A stretch of 64,000 nucleotides of DNA from Aotearoamyces nothofagi. Taxonomy: Eukaryota; Ascomycota; Leotiomycetes; Leotiales; Tympanidaceae. Below, piece by piece: positions 5,460-53,313 of the stretch. Positions within the stretch are counted from its first letter, which is position 1. Each line of letters starts with the position of its first letter. A program made the translations under genes and the position numbers. Under the pieces are notes generated by a model. It was not told the DNA's origin, made no database searches, and saw only the letters and a list, made by a program, of their open reading frames with translations. Where the stretch lies: NCBI GenBank assembly GCA_015345905.1, contig JADDTR010000012.1, positions 628,578 to 692,577 of the forward strand, given 5' to 3'.

Positions 5460-8400
5460 CTAATCTGCCGGGTATTCAGTAACGTCGGGTTGTTTATCGA
5501 AGATGAGAGTATGTCTAGTTTCGACCAGAGAGATCATTAATCCTTCAGTATCGAGCTCGCCTAAGCGGGAGTTCCGCGTAGGTAAGGTACTTGGATCTGG
5601 TTGTAGGGGTTGTAGCCCCTTCGGTGGAGGGGATATGACTGCTGGGCCACCAGAGGGCCTTGAATCCGCTGGCAACACGCTGGCCTGTCGTGTGTTGAAC
5701 CATCCTCCTTGTTCCCATAGGCCTGGTCGGTAGAGACACTTGTTGCGGGCCTCTTGGTCGACGATACCGGTGAAGAGTATGTTTAGTCGTTTGAAGTCGA
5801 TTGGTTTGAGTATCCAGCCATCAAAGCCAGCATCAATGTAAGTGTGCCGCTCTCGCTCGACGAGAGAAGCAGAGACTGCAAAGATTGGTACTCGGCCATT
5901 GTGTTTGGCTCGGGGTGATAATTCAATTTGTATATGGGTCCTTTCGAAAGACCGAATCATTTTCGTCGATGTGAGACCGTCAACAATTGGCATCTACATA
6001 TCTAGATGTTAGTATGGTATCAAAGACTCATCCTAACATAGAAGTAAATAGTGAGAAACAGTTATGAGATCTAGAGGTTCCATCTAGAGATTAAAGAAGG
6101 GAAAGGAGCACATGGCCATGTTTCAATCAGTGATCAGTACAAGAGTGTGCACATTCCATAAATGACAGCTTCTACAGGACAGTAGGCCCGAAAACACAAC
6201 TCTAGACTTGCGTTAAAACTAAGAGATATCAAACTATGCTTACCTGCATATCCATGAGTACAACATCGAAGAATGCCGGTTTCTCACCATAAGCACTGGC
6301 ACATTCTTCTCCATTGATTGTGTGGTGAACAGCATGTCCTGATTTTTCCATACGCTTTTGAATAATCTTAATATTAACTGGATCATCTTCAGCAACCAAG
6401 ACTTGTAGGCGATCGGCTATTGACTTTCGAGGTGGTTCTTGCTGCCTTGATAGGTCCGACGCGTGGAACGATGCTTGAGATGTGATAGTTGTCTGCGTAC
6501 TCTCAGTCCCCGGGAACTCCTCAGGCATCTTGACGGCTTTCAGTAATGTCTTGCTGTCCGTTACGAATTCTGACCCCGCGGGCCCAGCAGTTGTCGATCG
6601 TAGATGTTCTGGCACAACTTCACCATTACCATGGGGTCTGGAAGGTGCCATATTGCTTGATTGCTCACTGAAAGAAGCCAATTTTCCAGCCCGGGACTGT
6701 GCTGGAGTACTCCCAAGACTTCCAGAACTGATCCTGCTACTTTTACTATTCGATCGCATCTTGCGTGTTTGCTGGTCCTCGACTTTGCCGACCATGAATG
6801 GATCGCCAATAGCTTCAATTAGCCTATCTACATCGCTCTTTTTGCTTTTGCCGCTTGACCCACTCTTGAAACTCTGGATACTAGTGAAATCATCTGTGTT
6901 TCTTCTAGAAATTGTATCTTCGCCTCTTAGAGAGCTTGTTTTGCTCACAAGCATCACCTCGCCCGTAGTGATGTTATTTGGCGACGTGGCCGGTATGAGA
7001 AAAGAGTCCTTGGAGAAGATTGTAGTTTTGTGACTGCCTGCTGGCTCATGGTTCTCTGGTAGCACAAAAGGTAGCTGTATGATAAAGCGGGACCCTGCCC
7101 CTTCCTCAGACTTTAAGCGTAACTGACCCTCCATATTACGGATTATCCTGGCAACTATAGCAAGGCCTAGGCCTAGTGTGCGCTGAGGCTTGCCTTCTTT
7201 ACCAAAAACCAATTTATCAGAGCCTTTATCCTTGGAAAATAGCTCATCGGCGTCTGTTGAAACTTGTTCTAGATCTCGAAAAAGCGCATCAAGTTTCTGA
7301 TTCGACATGCCAACACCAGTATCTTGAATCGCTATGTCAATCGCAACATTCTGTCCCTGATTCTCGGCAAGCCACAACTCAACGCGAACACTTCCCTCTG
7401 TTGTGTGTTGGATCGCGTTGGCAATTACGTTCGACACTACCTGCCTTACTCGTCGTTGATCGCCGTACACAAATTGTGGTATCCCAGGATGTTCAATGAC
7501 TTCGTATTCGAGGCCTTTTCGCCTAGCATCGCTCTTAAACACGTTCGCCGCTTCTCGTACTGTAGCTAGTAAGTCAAAAATCTCGTCCTTGATCAAAGTT
7601 TGCCCCTCTTCTGTATTCGTTAGATCGAGCAAGTCATTGATCACATAGATCAATGCCTTAGAAGCAGAGTGTGACTTGGCGATGTTGTCTCGTGTTTCTT
7701 GGTCCAGTGTGCCTTCTAATGCGATCTCTAGATAGTTTATAATGGCGTTCAACGGCGTGCGTACTTCATGGGCAGAATTTAAAAGTAAGCTGAAAGACTA
7801 TCAGTTATTTGTGTCGTCACATAATACAGGGTTATTGAGGGTGGAATGCAATGAAAAGTGGCCATGGTTCTCCAACAAGGAGTGAAAGAAACGGGTGACA
7901 AACAGTCTTGTAAGCTGGCTTCTTTGCAATGCAGCCTCTTTCTGCCGCCACACCTCTATAAATTTACCATATACGAGACAAAGCACCGCCGCAGTTTCAA
8001 TTTGCTCCTCTGTCCATTCGCGACACTGCCCAATCACGGTTTCACTCCAACTCTTGAAACTTTTTCTAGGCTCTAGATAGCCATCCTTACTTTTGGGGGA
8101 CCTCTCATATGGGTTACCAGCCCATTTGATCTCCTTTATTTGGCCAGTGCGGAAGAACACAATGAAATCGGTGCCGCTGACACTGAGAGGTACTAGCAGA
8201 AGGCCAGCAATAACACCGAAGCCGGGAGGGTATCGCAAGTCGGGGAAATCATTTTTGATATTTTGACTTGTAATTATAGAAGTGATTTTACGTAGTCGCA
8301 AGTATTCCAACATCGCGAGTGCTTCTTGTGATTCTTCAAGACCTCCGAGGATTTTGGTCTGACCATGAATGGATAACAAACCAAACTCTGCATCAAATAG

Positions 8401-10610
8401 CTTCAATAGATCATCTGACGAGGCAATGATATATCCGGAGGGGTTGGCTTCAGTAGGCACAGTGTTGATAAGCTTCCGGGCCTGCAACCGGGATGCATAA
8501 GATAACCTTTCGATGTTTCTTGACGCGGTGTCTCCTACAAGGCGGCACATTTTCCGGATTGGAAAGGAGACTCTCGTGCCTTTTGTTCCGTACGAATGGC
8601 AAGTAATCAACCCCCAAAGTTCGCTGAATGCATTGATTGAAATCGACATCGACGATCGCACAGCCATATTGACTAGGAGTTTGATGTGCATGGGCGACAT
8701 GGCTCGTAGATACGAAAAGCTTAGATCAAGTGGCTTCTCAAGGTCCTCTGAAGTACGGCAGACTAATCGCGCTGGATCTAGGTCTCGATCGTATAGTACG
8801 CGAACTTTGTTTATTTTATACAAGTCCCGCGCTTGCTTTGGTATATCTGATGCGGGGAAGTTGAGGCCTTTGTAGAGATCATTTGTTGCCCACGGATCCA
8901 CGAGCTCTGTGACTACTCGGCCGTTATAAGCCGAGTCGAACTGGTAAATCATGACACGATGGAAGCCGGTCATTTCTTTAATGACACCAACCAGAACCTT
9001 GAGAAAAATTTCAAGATTTGGTGCCGCAAACAGTTGCTCCTGTACCTGAGACATGATATTGAACATCTCCATAGCTGCAGCCTCTCCCCTACGCTTCCTT
9101 GCGCTGCGTAAAACTCGAAGTGGTTTACTTAGATTATGTGTACTCTCGGCCAGTTCTTCACTGGTAGGCTTACTGTTTAGCATGTTCTCGGGTGGATCTG
9201 TTGAGACTTCATTGGTTGGAACGAGGGGATGAAGTTGATCGTCATCTAGTTCAAATTCGCAGATTACTAGAAAATGTTAGATTGAAATTCCATAGTGAAT
9301 TATAGTATGGGTGTGATAGACAGACTAATATCCGGATTGGCGGGGTGCATATGAATTGCACACCACAATTTGACGCCACTCTCCTTCGGGGTTCGTATTA
9401 CGATAGAAAATACTTCAGGGCCATTCGAAGCAGGGTCGGCATCTTCATCCCGGATGAAGTCAATATGATCTAGTAAATTATCTGCCTGCTCTTCGGATAG
9501 GATGTCTGTAAAGCTGCTCAGCTTGAAGAGTTCCTGAGGACTAAAGCCAATCATTCGTTTTGAATTCTCGCTGACGATACGAACAACTAACTGCCCGTCA
9601 TAGTCTTCAGTCAGCGCAATCAAAAGACCAAATCCTTGGATAGAGCCAGGAATATATATCGGCTCGTCCTCGCAGCGTTGGAATGTCTCTTCTTCCCGGC
9701 CTGTGATAAGGGCATGCTCTTCAGCTGTGATAATATGCTTGAATCTTGCAGTCACAAGACCTTCCACAACTTCATCGTCTGTAGCGGTATTGCCGCTAAG
9801 CAAGCTCGAGTTGTTTGTCGACATTGTTCTCTGAATACTAGGTGTATCTGCGTTTTTGGTCAATTTCTCTGACGTTGCGTGGCTACAAATATCCAAATTA
9901 TAGCGGCTCCCTCCTCGTAGTCGGTCTGATTCCCTTCGTCCGGTGGATATTGACGATCTTCGATTCCCATGGTCACCGTTGTGTGCGATTCGATTTTCGT
10001 TCGGAAGTCCAAATCCTAAAGTAGAATCGAGAGACTTTTGTAGCATATGCGACGTAGTATTTGTGCTCTCAGGCTGAGAGGCGGACTGCTTTCGAGAGTT
10101 ATAGCAAAAAGAGGCCCCTTCTGCGCCGTTCACGACATTACCACTGGCAGTTTCGATACCAGGAGAGCTCCCATATTTGCCAGAAGCATATCTAGGGGCC
10201 GATGGAGGTGTCTGAGTGGGGTCAACAGATATAACTGATCGGATTGGAAATACACGATCGCTAGGCCCAGGACTCGTATTCCCAAGCTGCTTGTCGGAAG
10301 TAGCTGGCCAAGAGGGCAACGTCTTTGGAGCGTATGAAGTAACGAGCGGGGGCGGGTGATCAGTAGACCATAGTTGTGGTAGTTTTGACTGTGGAGTGGG
10401 CAGTTTAGGAGATGGGGATGCACCTCTCCCTGTCGAATCTTGGATGCATGCACTATACCGATGATCTGGATGTTCAGCTTCGACCGTATTGCTTGTATCA
10501 TTTGGTGGACATTTTTGACTCTGTGTCTCCCCTGTAATCGTCGACATTGTAGACACAGATGCAATTTTTATGTTCCCCTCCACAGATCCAACCGGGCCTT
10601 TTCCCTTCAT
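5460..10610 (-). CDS. Fungal phytochrome, hybrid histidine kinase (FphA type)
   Basis: Red/far-red light sensor kinase of 1575 residues. Exons on the minus strand are 10610-9326, 9266-7904, 7789-6244 and 5993-5460. A disordered N-terminus of about 290 residues precedes the PAS domain, whose likely bilin-attachment Cys is C313 in RCEDEPIYIPG. The GAF domain has PASDIPKQAR (D569) and SPMH (H622), but Leu625 stands where bacteriophytochromes and, as I recall, other fungal phytochromes have Tyr. The PHY tongue has PRKSF (828-832) and a WSE motif. The kinase has phosphoacceptor H890 (NSAHEVRTPLNA), an N box (NAIQHT), and G boxes (DTGVGM, GLGLAI). The receiver has acceptor D1396 (LMDMQ) and K1461 (LKP). 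Splicing restores every domain. A start at the later MSTITGE is possible. It is divergent from the SDR-deacetylase gene. Confidence 0.95.
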
Positions 10611-12675: not shown

Positions 12676-15006
12676 ATGTCTTCTTTTCTAGGCCTCGAAG
12701 GTCTGCACGTCTTTATCACTGGCGCCAAAGGTGGCATTGGCGCCCAGGCTGTAGAAGAATTTCTCGGTAAGTATTTCTTGTCGAATGCGTCTTTCTTCAT
12801 CCGATGGATACTGCGTTTGCAGGTGGCTATTTTTGAGCCGCATCTTCATATCAGATGTCAGTAGTTAGAAGAGCTCTTCAAGCCATCCAATCACGATAAA
12901 AACGGATGGAGATGACCGAGAAACAACTGTGTGACAACGAAAGGCTCTGGTCCAATAAATCCCTGTGACTGGGCAAATAATTGGAAGCCAGTTAGGACTC
13001 TTGGTACTATACTGGCCACGGTCCTGTCTCATTTACAGCTTGGCACCGCATGGTTACAACTCCAGTCACGTGGCAATTTAAAAGAAGCTGCTACAATCCC
13101 TGTCAATTATTGGTTTAGAATTCTTGCAATGAAAAAGCCAATCTTTATTATATATTCTATTATATCTACTATGACTAATATATCATACAGGCCAGGGCTG
13201 CAAGGTAACAGCCCACGACCTTCGCGCGATCTCACCCGCCTCACCACCAAACCCGAATCTCTTCACCATAACCGGAGACATCTCATCAGAAGCCTCGATC
13301 AAAGGCTCCATCTCCGCCGCAGTCCGGCAATTCGGCCCCGTCAATATCCTCATCGCCAATGCTGGAATAACGGACGAATCGGCCTCGTACCCGATCTGGA
13401 AGATCCCGCTGGAGCTCTGGGACAAGACGTACAACAACAACATCCGAGGAACTTTCCTGACTATCAAGCACTTCCTTCAAGCTGCTGAAGACTATCAGAC
13501 TAGCCATGGCGGAAAGGAGCTCGAGAACTTGGCCATTGTAGTCACGGGCAGCGAGACTGGTAAGTTCGGCCAAGCAGGCCATACAGAGTATGCATCGGGA
13601 AAAGCAGGACTGCAGTATGGGTTAGTCCGCGGTGTCAAGAATGAGATTGTGAGATTGAACAGTCTTGCAAGAATCAACGCCGTGGCTCCGGGGTGGGTCG
13701 ACACGCCGCTCATTGAAGGCCGCCTAGATGATCCGAAAGAGCTGTGGACAGAAGCCCAAGCCACCGTACCATTGAAGAAGATCGCTCAACCAGAAGATGT
13801 CGCAAGAGCGATGGCATTTCTGGCAAGCCATCGTGCAGCAGGCCATATCACAGGCCAATGCCTGAGCGTCGACGGTGGCATGGAAGGAAGGGTTGTGTGG
13901 AGAGCTGAGGAGGTCATATCTGCCCCCGTTACAAGTACAGCTCAATCAATCGCCAACACAACCAAGCAGATCACCCTCCCAAGAAGTTCCATCCCTCAAA
14001 CTCTCCCACCATCAATTTTCAAACAGCCACGCAAAATTTCAATCCTTCTCTCCATCGACTTTGATGCCGTGTCCGGCTTCCTCGGCACCGGTGCTTCGCC
14101 AACCAACAACATGTCGGACTACAGCTCGGGCCATTTTGCCGGAAGCGTTGGCGTACCACGTCTGCTCAAGCTTTTTAAGAAGCACAATATTGCCGATGGC
14201 GTGACTTGGTTTGTCCCTGGGCATTCACTGGAGACGTTCCCCGCTCAGACAAAAGCAATTGTCGACAGTGGGGCTGAGATTGCGTGCCATGGGTATGCAC
14301 ACGAGGGCGGCTGGCAGATGACCGAGGCGCAGGAGAGGGACGTGATTATCAAATGTGTCGAGCTGGCTACCGAATTGACGGGGAAGAAACCGCTAGGCTG
14401 GCGAGCACCGCTGTATCAGATCAGAGAACACACGATCAAAGTCCTCGAGGAGTTGGGATTCTTATATGGTATATCTCCCCTTCTTTCTCCAATCATTGAA
14501 GCTGGCTGACGTTCACAGACACCTCCCTGACCCACCACGACTCGGCCCCGTATTTCCTCCCCGCAAACCCCGTCATAACACCCATTGACTTCTCCCCATC
14601 CGTTCCAGCCTCGAGCTGGATGCACCCGCTCCCTACCCCGCCGGCTCCTAGCACTAGCACGCTCGTCGAGCTCCCTGCGAACTGGTACATGGAAGACATG
14701 ACGCCCATGCAATTCCTACCTGCAGCCGTCAACTCGCACGGATTCGTCGCACCCGCCTCCATCGAGAGTATGTGGAAGGACCGGTTCAATTATCTCTACC
14801 ATGAGCATGATGACGAGGAGCAGCTGGAGCAGGGAAAGAGGGATTTCATCTTCCCGTTGGTATTGCATCCCGATACCTCGGGTATGGCGCATGTGATTGG
14901 CATGATTGATCGTATGATTGGTTGGCTGAAGAACCAGGGGGATGAGGTGGAGTTCGTCCAGTATGGCAAGTTTGCGGCACAGTGGAAGGCGAAGCAGGAT
15001 ATTTAG
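12676..15006 (+). CDS. Fusion of short-chain dehydrogenase/reductase and polysaccharide deacetylase (CE4) domain
   Basis: 618 residues from exons 12676-12766, 13191-14468 and 14519-15006. Residues 1-265 are a classical SDR: the nucleotide motif TGAKGGIG (15-22), ANAGIT, catalytic S151, Y164 and K168 (YASGK), and APGWVDTP. Residues 266-311 form a Ser/Thr/Pro linker. The rest is a NodB-type deacetylase resembling HpPgdA/PuuE-like members: D320/D322 (SIDFDA), metal-binding H397 and H401 (CHGYAHEG), GWRAPLYQIREHT, and a C-terminal LHPDTSGMAHV. Exon 2 runs through the SDR, the linker and most of the deacetylase without a stop, so this is one polypeptide. The first intron is unusually long (424 nt). 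No signal peptide is visible, so an intracellular small-molecule substrate is likelier than cell-wall chitin. The substrate is unknown; a reductase coupled to a C-N hydrolase is an inference. Confidence 0.88.
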
Positions 15007-15254: not shown

Positions 15255-15899
15255 TCAACCGGTTCCTAATTCCGGCACCTGCTCGTGCCTTCTCGCACCC
15301 CAGAACCCTCTCCCATAACTAACCAAGATCTCCTCATTCTTAGCAATGCCCTTCCCCTTCCCACTCTTTCCAAGTGGAAGCACCCAGACGGCCATTCCGC
15401 GCTGCTTTCGAGTCGGATTCCAGATTTCCTTGAACTCTGCATTGGGCCTATCCTTGATGCCGCGGTAGTCATTTACAAATCGGGCTTCGTTGCCCATCCT
15501 GTCTGCATCGATGGCCAGTCCCGACTCCCTGTCTAGGCTGAGATCATAGTCAGAGTGTGCGTGGTCATCTGGTTGCTTGTTGCAAGGGGATGAGGCATCC
15601 GAGGTGTGGATCTGACCGATGTATTCGAGAATGAAAGATCCGGGTTTGAGGTCTTTAGCTGCGAAAAGCCCTGCTTGGCCGAATGCAGGATGTGATGGGT
15701 CCTTGATGTTCGTAATCTTCACAACATTGCACGGACCCTTTGCTATGTTTGGTGGGATTTCGAGGGCATTCTCTGGCTTTGTTTGCAGTGTTGAGAGATG
15801 GATCGGAGTTAGATTTGGGGAGTATGAAGATGTGTTTAGATAGGGCAATGGCACTGGCCAGTTCTTGGGTTTATCTCCTGTAGTTCCTTTTGGCGGCAT
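15255..15899 (-). CDS. Small SET-domain protein lysine methyltransferase
   Basis: Single exon, 214 residues from the ATG at 15899. An in-frame ATG at 15914 has a poorer context. The SET domain fills most of the protein: GLFAAKDLKPGSFILEYIG near the start, a DYDLSLDRESGLAIDA strand pair, GNEARFVNDYRG (the SAM-pocket region where many SETs have NHS), and the C-terminal EEILVSYGRGFW with the catalytic-type Tyr. There is no pre-SET or Cys-rich post-SET region. It therefore belongs to the short SET family found in fungi and plants rather than to the SUV39 or SET1 types. The substrate is not predictable. It converges with the SDR-deacetylase gene, the stops being about 250 bases apart. Confidence 0.85.
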   Translation of the reverse strand: MPPKGTTGDKPKNWPVPLPYLNTSSYSPNLTPIHLSTLQTKPENALEIPPNIAKGPCNVVKITNIKDPSHPAFGQAGLFAAKDLKPGSFILEYIGQIHTSDASSPCNKQPDDHAHSDYDLSLDRESGLAIDADRMGNEARFVNDYRGIKDRPNAEFKEIWNPTRKQRGMAVWVLPLGKSGKGKGIAKNEEILVSYGRGFWGARRHEQVPELGTG

Positions 15900-17261
15900 G
15901 GTTGTAAGTAACATACATGCTCAGCCAAGCATCTGAAGACAAGCTAATCGCGTCTAATTCTATGTCACGTGATAAATAGACGCGTAGATGAAGAGAGACT
16001 GTTATATTCAATTCTATTTTTGCATTTTGATTGCATGACTGCTATTAGACTCCTGTAGCAGGCAGCCAAAAGAGCTTTAGCCTGCCTGAGATGATTGGAG
16101 AGGGGGTTCCCAACAAGTGAATCCCAAATTCTGCCGCCGTTCACCACGTGATAAGCGAACGACATCAACCCCCGTTGGGTATAAAAGCCGAGGGGAGGTA
16201 AATAAATGCCAAAAAATAGCAAAAAAGTAAATGATCAAATGCCCCGAGAGGTTTTGAGGTTGGGTTCCAAAGATTTTGGTTTCGAAGGCCTAGTATACAA
16301 GTATACTCTAGGAATGAGGCTGATAACCATATAGACGCGGAGGCGGAATATTGGAGGCAGCCGGTCTGACTACTGGGTTCCTGGCTCGCCTAACCAAGCT
16401 TCTGGAAACGACCAGCAAATCAGGGCCTCCTTGAAGACCAAATCTGCTTATTTCATCTTATATCCCTAGGTAGCGAGCGTGGCGGGTGCAGTCACATGAC
16501 CCACACTTATTTTGATATTCGCTAAATCCGTGCGTCCCGCTGCCGCACGCAGTAGTGCTCTCCACACTGGCATGGGGGGGTCGCGTCGGGGCTCCGCCAC
16601 TGCTTGTCACTGTCTCAAGTCTCCAGCGGTTGCAGCCATGGGACTGCACGCCTTGTTGTTCCTGGTCACGGGAACGGGACAAAGAGGATCCTACTATTCT
16701 AATCTACATCTATTCATCGAGGCCGAAGGCAAAGTCTTCTGTGCTCCTTCCATAGCCACGCATAATTAACTGGGGCCATAGATTCCGGGGTGTCCCAGAC
16801 ATATGACGTCGTCCTGGCCGGCAGCGGTATCCCCAAACTTGTCTGCGAACATAGAAATAGATGATGGCCATTCTGGACAGAGACATCCGGCTGCCCTGGT
16901 GCTTGTTTGTTTATGTTCGTCCTAAACTGTGAGGTCATCTGATCTTTCCGCATTCCTGACGCCACGTTTCGGCAACTGCTTAAAAGGCGGCACAAGCCAC
17001 ATGTTGTGAATTCTACATTCTCCACAACCCAAACTCAAGCTCAAGGTGAGTTTGCGACAACAAAGGATCCGAGGTTCTAGATAGTCGCTGACATTTGACT
17101 CGAGCAGAAGATAACCCCCCGACATCATCAATCTCTCGCCATTTCAAAAAGGATCAAAAGCAGTAAGTCAATTATCCGCCATTTTCTATGCGCCTCAGCG
17201 CTGCCAATACCCAGTTGCTGATGATTCCAAAGGCAATAGACAGACATAGACCGACATCAAA
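15900..17261. other. Divergent intergenic region with leader of the small membrane protein gene
   Basis: Separates the SET gene (-) from the small membrane-protein gene (+). No further gene is supported. A TTAAAAGG element near 16980 and two probable leader introns precede the ATG at 17262. Confidence 0.6.
17046..17232 (+). other. Two predicted introns in the 5' untranslated leader
   Basis: Consensus donors GTGAGT (17046) and GTAAGT (17163) pair with acceptors ending at 17107 (GAGCAG) and about 17232 (CCAAAG). A CTGAC-type branch point precedes the first acceptor. Both lie upstream of the ATG at 17262. This would give a leader of three short non-coding exons. Inferred from splice signals only. 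Confidence 0.5.
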
Positions 17262-26349: not shown

Positions 26350-27450
26350 TCACTTATTCCTATCTAGTATAGACTCAGAAGGCTCCTGCTTCTCCCCGTC
26401 CCGTCTTAAAGAATACTCATAATGCCAGCCACTAGGGTTGCCAATATCCTGCCTCACCTTATAGTTATCCTCCGCATCCTCTAAGATCTGCATGTCCAGG
26501 TCCACAATCAACATCCCCTCTTCAGCACCCAGCTTTCCCAGCGCGCCGACAAATGGAACTGCAACCTGACTCAGACCGCAATAGTTACCTGTAGGCTGGC
26601 CCTTCGGCCCACCAGCATTAGTAAAGATCACAGCACATGTGTTTTCAAACGTGCGCGCCACAAGCGTCGAGTCGAGGAACAGCGCTTCGGCTCTTGGATT
26701 GTAGGCTCGTCCGGCCTCGTTGCAGTCATTGAGGTTCCAGAAAGTCGGAATGATGATGATCTTCGCACCGCCGGCAATCAGCTCACGAAACGCCTCCGGG
26801 AAAGCAAGGTCCCAGCAGATCAGCATTCCAACTTTCCCTAGAGGGGTGTCGAATGCTTCGTGAGGCTTGTGGTTAGAGGATGTCAGATGCGGGCGTTCCG
26901 GGTGCCATAGATTTTTCTTCTGGTACGACGATAGAACGGTGCCGTCGTCGGAGATGAAATAGGCCACGTTGTGCAGCTCAGCACCGTGTTTCTCGACAAT
27001 CGTGCCGGGAACGATGCATATTTTGAACCCTTTGGCGAGAGCACAGTAGGAGTCAAGGTATTTCTGATATGCTGCACATTGGATTGAGAACTTGGCGTCT
27101 TCTGGCGCCCAGCCGCTCAGGTGGTATTCTGGAAGGACGGCGAGAAGGGCGCCGCGTGAGGCGGCCTTGCGGATGAAGTCGCATGCTTTGGCATGGTTGG
27201 CTTCAATTTCTAGTGTCTGCAAGAATATAAGTTATTTTATACGGTATGAAATAATATTATAGGACAGGGCGAGGTCTGAGTAGATGAAGAAGGTGGAGCC
27301 AATATTTATTGAGATCGGGAGGGTCTACATGATGAGACACATCTGGGACAAAATAGACTTCAAGAAACAGGATTTAGATAGGGATGGCCTGAAATAAATA
27401 CAAACCTCGGGGTGAAGCTGAATAACGGCAATTTTATAGACTGGTGCCAT
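26350..27450 (-). CDS. Carbon-nitrogen hydrolase (nitrilase superfamily)
   Basis: 303 residues from exons 27450-27406 (encoding MAPVYKIAVIQLHPE) and 27216-26350, with a 189-nt intron. The nitrilase catalytic triad is complete: E45 (LPEYH), K115 (SYQKKNLWHPER) and C149 (MLICWDLAFPEA). The length suits a single-domain amidase, hydrolysing an amide or carbamoyl group to acid and ammonia in the cytosol. N-carbamoylputrescine amidase-like and omega-amidase-like branches share this layout, and I cannot choose between them. The first exon is needed to supply the first beta strand of the fold. The 5' flank lies in a short AT-rich promoter region. Confidence 0.88.
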
Positions 27451-49442: not shown

Positions 49443-52400
49443 TTATACTGTTGCACTATTGTCCTCATCACTATCCAGCACCGCAAGCATATCCTCATCA
49501 TGATCAGCCACTCCCAAACCTACCTTGTCAGCGTCGGCAAAGTCATCCATCTCAATTGACTGCATGATAATATCCTGCATGTTGGCACCACTAGCGGTAT
49601 CCCTCTCCCACTTCTCAATCAGGACCTTCAGCAACTCCTTGCCCAGAGCTTTGCCCACAGGAATAGGGACAGCGTTACCGATCTGCCTGTACATCGCCCT
49701 CGGAGTCTGCGTCTCAGGATCCCAGGTGAAACAATCTGGGAAGCCCTGCGCCCGAGCCTGTTCGCGCACGGACAGGACTCGGTGTTGCGTGGGGTGGATG
49801 ACCTAGACAGCGTGTATCTGTTAGCAAGTGGCAGTAGGCTTGCGCACGTGAGAGAGGGCCCGTACCTGTCCGTTCTTTCCGCTGGGGTTTATGTCCGTCA
49901 AGCAGGTCTGGAATGTGCTCTTGAAATCCAGACGGCAATATCGGGTTGGGTAGTAGCGGTGGCGGGGAGCTGCTGATTTCGGGTTTCGCAGGCACCACAT
50001 GTCCTCGTGGACTTTCAGATCTAGATGGTTGGCACCTGGCATCATGGGTATCTTCATGACACGTTCCATCGTCTCATCGCCCCATCGTATAGTGAAGTGA
50101 TTGTAGACTTTATTTCCAATGACTCCCTTACGAAGCTCACGTTGATATTCAGACACTGGACCGCTTGGATAGACTTGGCTATCGCTACCTATTCTTACAT
50201 TGGCGCCTTCGGTAAGAGGGACTTGTCGGATTCTGAGAGCTCTGTGTGCTCTGGCGGCCCTGTCTTCGACAGATCCTCCATTGACTCCTATCTTCCAATC
50301 AAAAGCCGGCAGATCAGTAATGGCATCTCCAACAGTGACCTCTGGATGCGGCGCCGATCTTTTAGTTTTGCGGCCATACTTTGGGGGTTGCAGCCCAGAA
50401 AAGACATGAGAGGGTTGAGGATATCTTGGTAGAGGGCAGCCAGGCTGAGCCCCCCAGAAGAAAACGCGCAAGCGTGACTGGGGGGTTCCATGCTCCCCAG
50501 CTTGCAAAACACCGTAATGAGCTTGATAACCCAGAGATGTAAGTGCACGAAGGATGAACTTTACACATCCCATCTCGATGCCTCCCTTGACCTTGAATAT
50601 ATTCACCTGGGAGCTCCCAAGTCGGTGATCCAGCATACCTCTGACATTCTCGAGTAGGAAGTATTTGGGTCGATAGAAGTCGACATAAGACAGATAAGTT
50701 GCTACGAGGGAGTTCTTGATACTGTTTGCTTTCTTGTATTGGTTGCAAGCACTGTAGTCTGGGCACGGGGGGCTTCCGTATAGAAAGTCCCTTCACACGA
50801 AAATAAAATGTTAGCCAGAGCCCTGCTGCTAGTTACAAAGACGGTGAAAGGTTCAAAAATAATCAAAAGATTGAAGCGATATAAAGGCTCGTAACACTCA
50901 TTAACAGCAGTAACAGCGTTGAAATAACTTACACATCACCTGGCTTGGGCATTGGTGGCAGCACAGAGCTTTTCGTGAGGTCCATCAACTTGCCCTTTGC
51001 AGTTCCCGCATTCTCCTCGAGAGCACGACGAAGTAATACGTTTACGTCATGGTTATAGACCTTCACCTGGGGCTTGTTTCGTTTGAATGTCTGAGCTGCT
51101 TCGCTGTCCCATTCAATGGCCCACTCTGTCGAGATCGCTTCGCTCAAATCGAGTCCTACTGTAAGACCACCCGCTCCGCTGAAGACATCCATAGATCTAA
51201 GCTTAGGAACATTCGCGAGAAATGCGTCCCGCCGACTCAGGTCAATGGTAAGCTGTTCGTCGCCATCTGATGATGGACTGAGGCTGTCGGCTGAGATTGG
51301 CTCCAGGTCTTTAAGAGTGTAGTTGTCATTAGTAGCATTGCGAAAGGCACGGTCGACCACATAGAAAGTGTCTTCGAAATCCTTGTATTTATCAAGGTCA
51401 TCGATATTTGACAGGTGTCGGACAAAGCATTTTCCATCAAGGCGATCCTCCGATATCTTTAAGAAACGGTCGGTGAGAAATAGACGTCTGTTGTCTCGAA
51501 TCCGAAATTTGGCACTTCGATTGGCTTCGCTCAAGTAGTCTGTGTTGAGCTGGTCATAACGCCTCAGCACCCGTGCTTCGATTCGAACTTTTACGTTCGC
51601 TTCATCGCTGGGGGTAGACTTCAGCCATTGAAATAGTCCTTTGGGTTTGATTGTAGAAATTTGGCCTATGATATACGGCTCGTCTACATCTCCAGGGGTG
51701 ATATAGACAAAGTCTTTCGCACCATAAATGATTCCCCCGAGTGAGATCTTCTCCACTGTACCGTCTCTCCTAGCCTTGCTTATTACTGTCGTCAGTTCCT
51801 CGCTATGCTTTTTTCCGAGTTTGTTACAGGTGTCACAGTCTTTGTAATCAGTCTGGCCAGCGCGTTGTCTCGGCTGCTCATGAAGGCTTACATCTTCAAA
51901 TCGCTCTTCGCCTTCGCAGTAAAAAAGTCGATAGAAGTAATGATTGGTCTTCTGGAATGATTCCTCGATGGCTCCTATTCCTGTCGCGCCGGTAGCTTCA
52001 TCTCGGCCGACAAAGTCAACCTCGATTTTTCCTGCTATAGCGCCGAGTGGAATATCGTCGCAACGGCCTAGTAGGAACAGCTCTCTGGGACCTGCTGTCT
52101 CTGCAAGAATCGTATCGCCGCCGTGAACCATCCAGACAACGTGGGCACAAGGGCTTCCATCTTCATCTGCAAAGAGATAGACAACTCGAGCGAACCAAAT
52201 GCTAGCAGCGGCTTCTAGAATTTGCGTTTTCGTAGATTTTCCCTTCTTTTTAGCGGCAAGGGCAATTGGGTGCTCGTCGGCTCCAGGTCGGACAGTCACA
52301 TAAGTCCAGGGAGTAATAGTAGCACCGTCGACAACTGCTGAACCATACCCAGTCCTACTAGTCTTCAAATCCTTCCATGTTGAAGATCCCACCCAGTTTA

Positions 52401-53313
52401 TGTGTACAGTCTCCTTTCTACCAGTCCATCCTGCTCGTCTTATATCTTCCGGATCACAGGTTATATCAATGAGGGCATCCATGCTCATTCCATCCGCTCC
52501 AGCGGCGGCAACAACACCAGCTTTGTCGCGCAAAGCATTCTCGCCATCGCAAACCAGCATAGTTTTAACAAAGAGGGCACCAGCCAGACGGCCTATCCAC
52601 TTCGTGACAGTTGTAACAGTTTCGTGTGCTTCTGATTTTGACTTCTTTTTTACCTTAACAACCTTCACTTCCTCTCGAGGCTGTCTTTGTGTAGCTTGTG
52701 CCCGATGGCTCTGTCCTCGACTAGATCCTTCGGTGAGCACCTCAGAATCAGTGTCTGCTGACTCCGAACCAGCAAAGCTTGTGGAATCACTGATGTCTTC
52801 TGCTAATTTAGTGAGATTGTGTGGCTTAAAATAATTATCAATTGTATGTTCGGGTTTAGTGTGGTGGGGCGTCTTTTGCATAACAGTAATTGTGTCTCCG
52901 TCCCCAAACATGTGGCCAGGATCATCTGCCTCTGACGAAGTCAAAATGCCTTCTCCGTCTTCGCCAGCAGACAGTTCAATAGGAGCATCTTGTAATGCAC
53001 CGGGAGGGTTTGAAGGTGAATAATCAACAGGAGATGCAGGCGATTCCAGTAATTCACCCTCATCGACCATCTCAGCTGGTACTGCGAATTGTTTGTCGGA
53101 TTGAGTGATGATCTTCCATACCCGAGCTATAGCAGAACGTTCATTAAAGTCTGATGACTTCAATATATCGTAGAACTCATCTAGTTGATATTAATGATGA
53201 TGATCTTGATGAAGGGCTACTACTAACTCACGAGAGCTCATCTCTGGCCTGAGATCAAACGCAAGTTTGAAACGTTCACGAAAGTCGCTCTCACTGACCT
53301 CTTTCATATCCAT
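49443..53313 (-). CDS. DNA (cytosine-5) methyltransferase with tandem BAH domains, DIM-2-like
   Basis: 1204 residues from exons 53313-53232, 53180-50933, 50790-49866 and 49802-49443. The N-terminal 200 residues are acidic and disordered, with a PIP-like EHTIDNYF motif (138-145) and a Lys-rich patch. BAH1 spans about 316-455 and BAH2 about 508-640; a CDTC knuckle lies between them. The catalytic domain has motif I FSGAGG (694-699), motif IV GSPPCPDYS with catalytic C786, motif VI ENVR, motif VIII QSRLRVFFWG, and motif X YRQIGNAVPIPVGKAL. The tail is acidic. Two BAH domains ahead of the catalytic domain point to the DNMT1/DIM-2 lineage, not the short RID type. DIM-2 maintains methylation at RIP-mutated DNA in Neurospora. 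Splicing restores all motifs, so it should be active. Confidence 0.92.

Follow-up and report, generated by a model that had tools for sequence, protein, structure and literature searches.

An SDR-CE4 fusion in Aotearoamyces nothofagi, a candidate two-step enzyme for small nitrogen-containing ring compounds

At one locus of the ascomycete Aotearoamyces nothofagi, an earlier note made from the letters of the sequence saw an SDR core running into a CE4-type deacetylase and suggested a two-step intracellular conversion. Is this one gene encoding one protein, and if so, what might the protein do? We analyzed the 64,000-nucleotide (nt) stretch of DNA that holds the locus (the window) and compared both halves of the protein with solved structures, bacterial relatives, other genes of the same genome, and published enzymes.

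One gene and one reading frame

The features of the gene, its surroundings, and a related cluster discussed below are given in Table 1. Of 20 exon-junction combinations tried, only the one joining 12766 to 13191 and 14468 to 14519 gave a frame with one terminal stop; the other 19 had 7 to 24 stops. The start, stop, and exon borders proposed earlier were thereby upheld. The spliced gene is 1857 nt long and encodes 618 amino acids (aa). The note had also described exon 2 (13191-14468) as uninterrupted through the linker, and this was borne out: no stop interrupts the frame between the SDR and the CE4 domain, linker included. A codon-usage score trained on eight other open frames in the window was 0.13 for the linker in its coding frame, against −0.02 and −0.04 in its two alternatives. 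One gene encoding one chain, an SDR plus a CE4/NodB-fold hydrolase, is confirmed. We consider it extremely improbable that an error of assembly or gene modeling has joined two neighboring genes: the join falls within a single open exon, codon usage there is that of coding sequence, and the window contains no N.

Table 1. Features of the fused gene, its surroundings, and the hxn-like cluster at C11
Feature	Position	Strand	Remarks
Exon 1	12676..12766	+	SDR residues 1-30 and first base of codon 31; TGAKGGIG cofactor motif (15-22)
Intron 1	12767..13190	+	GT-AG, 424 nt
Exon 2	13191..14468	+	Remainder of SDR (S151, Y164, K168), linker, start of CE4 (D320, D322, H397, H401)
Interdomain linker	13883..14042	+	Residues ~262-314; coding by codon usage
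Intron 2	14469..14518	+	GT-AG, 50 nt
Exon 3	14519..15006	+	C-terminal part of CE4 (H573) and stop
Phytochrome histidine kinase	frames 5460 to 10610	-	Flanks the fused gene on one side
SET-domain gene	15255-15914	-	Flanks the fused gene on the other side
Carbon-nitrogen hydrolase	26350-27222		11 kb from the fused gene
HxnV-like frame	C11 cluster		FAD_binding_3 and Phe_hydrox_dim
HxnR-like regulator	C11 cluster		Fungal_trans; separate frame with a C2H2 match below the Pfam cut-off, one gene assumed
HxnW-like SDR gene	C11 cluster	opposite to HxnM-like CE4	Divergent pair with the HxnM-like CE4 gene
HxnM-like CE4 gene	C11 cluster	opposite to HxnW-like SDR	Spliced, 311 aa
HxnX-like FAD enzyme	C11 cluster		Open frame ends in SRL

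As far as our searches reach, the arrangement is new for two known kinds of enzyme. Searches of the literature for an SDR-CE4 fusion yielded no papers other than one on Actinoplanes and one on Pseudomonas brassicacearum. Of the two papers on the Aspergillus nidulans nicotinate pathway discussed below, PMC8478523 contains neither "fusion" nor "fused" in its main text, and in PMC9304392 "fusion" occurs seven times, used for tagged proteins, PCR, and protoplasts in the passages seen. No relative was found in the viral contigs scanned. A Pfam search of ten of the window's frames showed no evident pathway partner near the fused gene. The window also holds a gene for a cytosine DNA methyltransferase with BAH domains (49821-53163, minus strand); the Pfam BAH and DNA_methylase matches are on frame 50929-53163, and the methyltransferase span also takes in frame 49821-50636.

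The two halves and their bacterial relatives

A Pfam search had been proposed as a check of the fusion, and it found both domains above their curated cut-offs: PF13561 (adh_short_C2) at residues 16-261 (E 5.9e-35) and PF01522 (Polysacc_deac_1) at residues 352-454 (E 2.3e-14; 53.8 bits versus a cut-off of 23.1). The N-terminal half has the marks of a classical SDR (PF13561/PF00106), namely TGAKGGIG at 15-22, NAG at 87-89, S151, Y164, and K168. The C-terminal half has those of a CE4/NodB-fold enzyme, with the Asp base, the Asp-His-His metal set, and the catalytic His. All seven residues named in the earlier note (S151, Y164, K168, D320, D322, H397, and H401) are at the positions it gave, and H573 is a further CE4 catalytic histidine. 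In SDRs, an Asp at the end of beta-2 goes with a preference for NAD. Because Asp40 stands at the end of beta-2, the SDR half is probably NAD+-dependent. Its top match in the PDB, among 530, was the FabG-type 4nbu; 3awd was absent among the best 60 of these 530 matches.

When the CE4 half was compared with solved structures, the best match by far was HpPgdA of Helicobacter pylori (3qbu/4ly4), with an E value of 1.3e-68 over query residues 4-303 of 311; next came 3rxz (2.4e-28) and the PuuE allantoinase (3cl6; 1.2e-19). Residues D320, D322, H397, H401, and H573 align with HpPgdA D12, D14, H86, H90, and H247 (numbered by an offset worked out from the alignment, with residue roles from the available text of PMC3084791). 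That text describes HpPgdA as a metal-bound tetramer with an obstructed, closed pocket and without a signal peptide, inactive on GlcNAc, chitotriose, N-acetylated polyamines, N-acetyl dipeptides, and allantoin; the authors (Shaik et al.) favor a small-molecule substrate, which the closed pocket suggests. The earlier note's suggestion of an allantoin-like substrate, by analogy with PuuE, is unsupported: PuuE ranks far lower, and HpPgdA was reportedly inactive on allantoin. Identity with PuuE itself was rejected on the same two E values, and the fusion keeps the metal ligands.

The catalytic set of the fused CE4 domain is kept, and its pocket is altered. The domain is ~40 to 45% identical to bacterial ones. 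Among the best 80 of 568 bacterial relatives, D322, H397, H401, and H573 are present in all 80 and the base D320 in 79. The same 80 proteins all have Trp-Trp at the positions of HpPgdA Trp127 and Trp128, where the fusion has Leu438 and Tyr439, and at the position of Arg435 of the fusion 79 have Val and 1 has Thr. According to the parts of PMC3084791 available to us, Trp127 and Trp128 bear on access to the active site. The fused CE4 half is similar to HpPgdA over its full length, as befits the HpPgdA-like subgroup (cd10938; judged by the match to HpPgdA, not by the CDD model), and departs from the subgroup in the tryptophan pair at the pocket entrance, which we ourselves read as its mark. Since Leu438, Tyr439, and Arg435 replace conserved residues, hydrolysis of an imide by the fused CE4 domain is not assured.

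What HpPgdA-type enzymes act on is disputed; in the papers we consulted in part, they are variously named peptidoglycan deacetylase, acetylxylan esterase, chitin deacetylase, and cyclic imidase. HP0310 was reported to be active on acetylated xylan, chitin, and pNP-acetate (PMC3688963), and Cod4 of Aspergillus fumigatus to deacetylate chito-oligosaccharides, with Cod7 inactive (PMC6957412). Both reports are at odds with the view that the family consists purely of imidases. Similar HpPgdA-like fungal CE4s thus carry different names in the accessible text, Cod4 as a chitin deacetylase (PMC6957412) and HxnM as a cyclic imidase (PMC9304392). We considered and set aside a chitin deacetylase as the identity of the CE4 half; the order of the PDB matches and what the accessible text of PMC3084791 says of the HpPgdA pocket speak against it, and the deacetylation reports in PMC3688963 and PMC6957412 speak against the rejection. 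A secreted fungal chitin deacetylase was likewise rejected: the protein starts with the SDR domain, and the PDB ranking favors HpPgdA.

Bacterial gene neighborhoods bear on which enzymes work with CE4 proteins of this kind. A tblastn search with the CE4 half gave 385 plasmid records, all at <60% identity. In six annotated plasmid neighborhoods, an SDR was present in five, an amidase or asparaginase in five, and an annotated GTP-binding protein with an adjacent small hypothetical protein in five; in one of the six, an annotated chitin deacetylase lay ~4 kb from the CE4 gene. Bacterial CE4 neighbors include amidases, asparaginases, hydantoinase-like enzymes, and transporters. The genome sample consisted of the best 80 of 568 confirmed CE4 relatives and was rich in Pseudomonas and Pantoea. 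These loci were found by two conserved peptide patterns, so the sample leans to typical family members, and some of them are short, so the presences given here are lower bounds.

In these best 80 of 568 loci, SDR matches were concentrated near the CE4 gene, numbering 33, 40, 2, and 2 in successive 2.5-kb bins that held 380, 359, 329, and 303 kb of sequence; that is, up to 5 kb from the CE4 gene there were 73 matches in 739 kb, versus 4 in the 632 kb beyond. Within 5 kb there was an SDR in at least 41 of the 80 loci, an amide hydrolase in at least 43, both in at least 34, a GTPase in at least 51, and a dihydropyrimidinase-like protein in at least 8. An amidase, an MFS transporter, a small protein, and a GTPase occurred together in at least 20 of the 80, all 20 with an SDR. 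When the same loci were sorted into 57 genus-level groups (our own labels, taken from record titles), an SDR was within 5 kb in at least 23 groups and an amide hydrolase in at least 27. The background of SDRs is low, since first-look candidates numbered 9 to 117 per 1.4 to 10.2 Mb in 11 such genomes. The SDRs beside CE4 genes include rows from Pseudomonadota, Actinomycetota, and Bacillota. The center of the nearest SDR match was >1.6 kb from the CE4 gene, and so no fusion was seen in the best 80 of 568 loci with the SDR query used; a few of their CE4 open frames extend ~150 to 420 codons upstream, with no SDR match within the extensions.

The set that recurs in bacteria (at L011 of Pantoea, L013 of Klebsiella, and the 20 loci) consists of a CE4 gene, an MFS transporter, SDRs, a small hypothetical protein, a GTPase, and mostly an amidase; L011 and L013 also have a GntR regulator. 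The L011 GTPase has confirmed CobW domains, and its similarity to a zinc-chaperone model is weak, far below the cut-off of that model. Such SDR-CE4-amidase clusters may form a module that breaks down ring compounds containing nitrogen, and the set is perhaps an N-heterocycle module of this kind with a metal supply for the CE4 enzyme.

The closest relative found for the fused SDR is not from these clusters. It is an SDR on a plasmid of Paracoccus aminovorans (L020:8989-10570; 34.7% identity), with a DAO-type FAD oxidoreductase before it and another SDR after it; no CE4 gene was found within ~9 kb of it, in an 18.8-kb stretch, by annotation or by tblastn. In an 88-row tree the two SDRs pair firmly (100/99), and the pair joins the bacterial operon SDR1 group weakly (83/59). 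Because the tree has many long branches, we made no use of the weak join. Orthology of the fused SDR to the bacterial operon SDRs is unsupported, as it groups with an SDR whose neighborhood is without CE4. The link between SDR and CE4 activities therefore rests on enzyme class, on recurrence, and on the fusion itself, not on orthology. A scan of 398 genomes from a single phylum gave no SDR-half match that reached E 1e-32, an empty answer that is uninformative alone, with at most six first-look candidates scored per genome in the rows shown.

The nicotinate pathway and the C11 cluster

The two enzyme classes also act in succession in a fungal pathway. As described in the available sections of PMC8478523 and PMC9304392, HxnW of A. 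nidulans is an NAD-dependent SDR that converts 5,6-dihydroxypiperidin-2-one to 3-hydroxypiperidine-2,6-dione, and HxnM (CE4_HpPgdA_like) opens this ring, the amidase HxnN acting next. The placement of HxnW and HxnM comes from deletion strains and accumulated metabolites, and the structure of the imide intermediate was deduced from mass spectrometry and its neighbors in the route. According to the same sections, hxnW and hxnM are two distinct genes, which are paired divergently in several Pezizomycotina classes but not in Aspergillus, and accumulated intermediates of the A. nidulans route inhibit growth mildly to slightly.

Is the fused protein then a joined HxnW and HxnM? In the same 25.5-Mb genome the CE4 half has one other close relative, at C11 (E 2.5e-36), and one weak one, at C41 (5.9e-8). 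The relative at C11 belongs to an hxn-like cluster at ~102.9-114.9 kb (L110:5909-10000 and L108:213-7923), with HxnV-, HxnR-, HxnW-, HxnM-, and HxnX-like genes. These names rest on domain content, layout, and the divergent SDR-CE4 pair, not on A. nidulans sequences; the regulator is called HxnR-like for what we take to be the domain type of HxnR. The C terminus of the HxnX-like enzyme is the one stated for HxnX in the text available of PMC9304392. With the C11 SDR as the query, 23 PDB matches were obtained at E values up to 1e-30; of the two structures named for HxnW in that text, 3awd was among them, not as the best, and 3uve was absent. The C11 HxnM-like protein retains VAPWWE. Within the best 80 of 568 bacterial loci, the five proteins that match it best are 59.8 to 63.5% identical to it. 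A phytochrome histidine kinase adjoins the fused gene, and another (L111:1928-5413, minus strand) is situated several kb away from the HxnM-like gene at C11; two phytochrome genes near two CE4 genes may reflect either chance or an old duplication.

The fused CE4 domain is 39% identical to the C11 HxnM-like protein. Between the fused SDR and its C11 counterpart identity is 24%, and the fused one branches elsewhere in the 88-row tree. Because of the separate C11 cluster, these identities, and the replacement of the two pocket tryptophans, the fused protein is probably not the nicotinate pair, and its substrate is probably not a nicotinate intermediate. A fused HxnW-HxnM performing the nicotinate steps in this fungus would account for both enzyme classes and their order, which match the A. 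nidulans pathway as far as the papers were available, but the genome already carries an hxn-like cluster with its own divergent HxnW- and HxnM-like genes, from which the fused halves differ greatly; we set this explanation aside as very unlikely. The HxnW-HxnM-like pair of A. nothofagi is divergent, an arrangement that simple read-through could not turn into a fusion.

A candidate two-step enzyme among known systems

The two classes of enzyme that perform the consecutive HxnW and HxnM steps are thus present, in reaction order, on one chain. By analogy, the fused protein probably breaks down a small nitrogen-containing ring compound in two steps, and our preferred reading, which we hold to be somewhat better than an even bet, is a bifunctional cytosolic catabolic enzyme whose SDR would form a cyclic imide or similar compound for the CE4 domain to open. 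In the first step, the N-terminal SDR with NAD+ would oxidize a ring hydroxyl beside a lactam nitrogen, or a similar alcohol, giving a cyclic imide or similar C-N ring. In the second, the metal-dependent CE4 domain, of the HpPgdA/HxnM type, would open the ring by C-N hydrolysis to a half-amide, using metal-bound water with D320 as the base and H573 as the acid (roles assigned by homology). With the domains in reaction order on one chain, the intermediate could pass locally. That the fused domains act in succession is our inference, and so are the cofactor, the class of reaction, the location in the cytosol, and any channelling. Classical SDRs are in many cases tetramers. Because of this, and because HpPgdA is described as a four-fold tetramer in the text at hand, larger assemblies may be possible.

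Several lines of evidence point to the two-step enzyme: two catalytic sets in one frame, a CE4 half that matches HpPgdA over nearly its full length, the concentration of SDRs within 5 kb of CE4 genes in the best 80 of 568 bacterial loci, and, in the papers as far as available, the closed pocket of HpPgdA, its lack of a signal peptide, its inactivity on GlcNAc and chitotriose (PMC3084791), and the making of an imide by HxnW and its opening by HxnM (PMC8478523 and PMC9304392). At the level of enzyme class, then, the earlier claim of an intracellular redox step followed by C-N hydrolysis is supported by HpPgdA and the cyclic imidases (EC 3.5.2.16), the HxnW-to-HxnM order, and the bacterial neighbors; its allantoin part is not. 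Against the two-step enzyme are the lack of orthology between the fused SDR and the HxnW-like gene, the weak sister relation to SDR1, the Paracoccus SDR without a nearby CE4, the altered pocket, and the deacetylation reported for HP0310 and Cod4 (PMC3688963 and PMC6957412); moreover, in the text available, the places of HxnW and HxnM in the pathway come from deletion strains and metabolites rather than from purified enzymes.

Canonical CE4 motif 3 is Arg-x-x-Pro. Arg435 restores the look of this motif in the fusion, as might be expected if the CE4 half were a de-N-acetylase acting on an amino sugar or chito-oligosaccharide, with the SDR acting on the same sugar. The reports on HP0310 and Cod4 and the chitin deacetylase gene in one of the six plasmid loci fit this explanation, but the inactivity of HpPgdA on GlcNAc and chitotriose, its closed pocket, the deletion and metabolite data that assign HxnM the role of a cyclic imidase (again as far as the sources were available), and the amidases, asparaginases, hydantoinase-like enzymes, and transporters among the bacterial neighbors make it rather improbable. 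Slightly less improbable, and still unlikely, is that the fused domains serve unrelated reactions, or that one alone is active in vivo. Orthology of the fused SDR to the SDRs beside CE4 genes is unsupported, which suits such a case, but catalytic residues are kept in both halves, and SDR and CE4 recur together in bacteria and, in the accessible literature, in the fungal hxn pathway.

If the fused protein is a two-step enzyme, it might serve an undescribed fungal pathway parallel to nicotinate degradation, a more speculative proposal for which we have only limited confidence: one dehydrogenase-imidase whose SDR would oxidize a hydroxylactam and hand the resulting imide to a remodelled CE4 pocket (Arg435, Leu438, and Tyr439), the fusion having arisen independently of hxnW-hxnM. 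Because the hydrolase is joined in nature to a dehydrogenase, it is linked to a likely preceding redox step, and the product of the SDR is a handle on the substrate of the CE4 domain.

Among known systems, HpPgdA (HP0310) aligns with nearly the whole CE4 half and shares Asp12, Asp14, His86, His90, and His247, but it is a standalone tetramer with Trp127/Trp128 and a Val before Ala-Pro where the fusion has Leu438/Tyr439 and Arg435. Cod4 and Cod7 of A. fumigatus, in the available text of PMC6957412, are HpPgdA-like fungal CE4s without a signal peptide; unlike the fusion, they are standalone proteins of 308 and 306 aa and are named chitin deacetylases. Their counterpart in A. nothofagi is probably the C11 gene rather than the fused gene. 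At the matching place the C11 gene has no intron, whereas the fused gene has intron 2. PuuE is also a CE4-fold hydrolase of a small cyclic substrate, but it is a far weaker match, and it is described in the partial text as having no metal at its site, whereas HpPgdA binds metal. The bacterial CE4-MFS-SDR-SDR-GTPase clusters of Pantoea and Klebsiella likewise place a CE4 of this family next to SDRs and amide hydrolases, but as separate proteins, and their SDRs are ~24 to 33% identical to the fused SDR. Closest in chemistry are HxnW and HxnM, described in the accessible papers as an NAD-dependent SDR followed by an HpPgdA-like CE4 that together take a hydroxylactam through a cyclic imide to a half-amide; they differ from the fusion in being two genes, in the low identity of the HxnW- and HxnM-like genes of A. 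nothofagi to the fused halves, and in the pocket.
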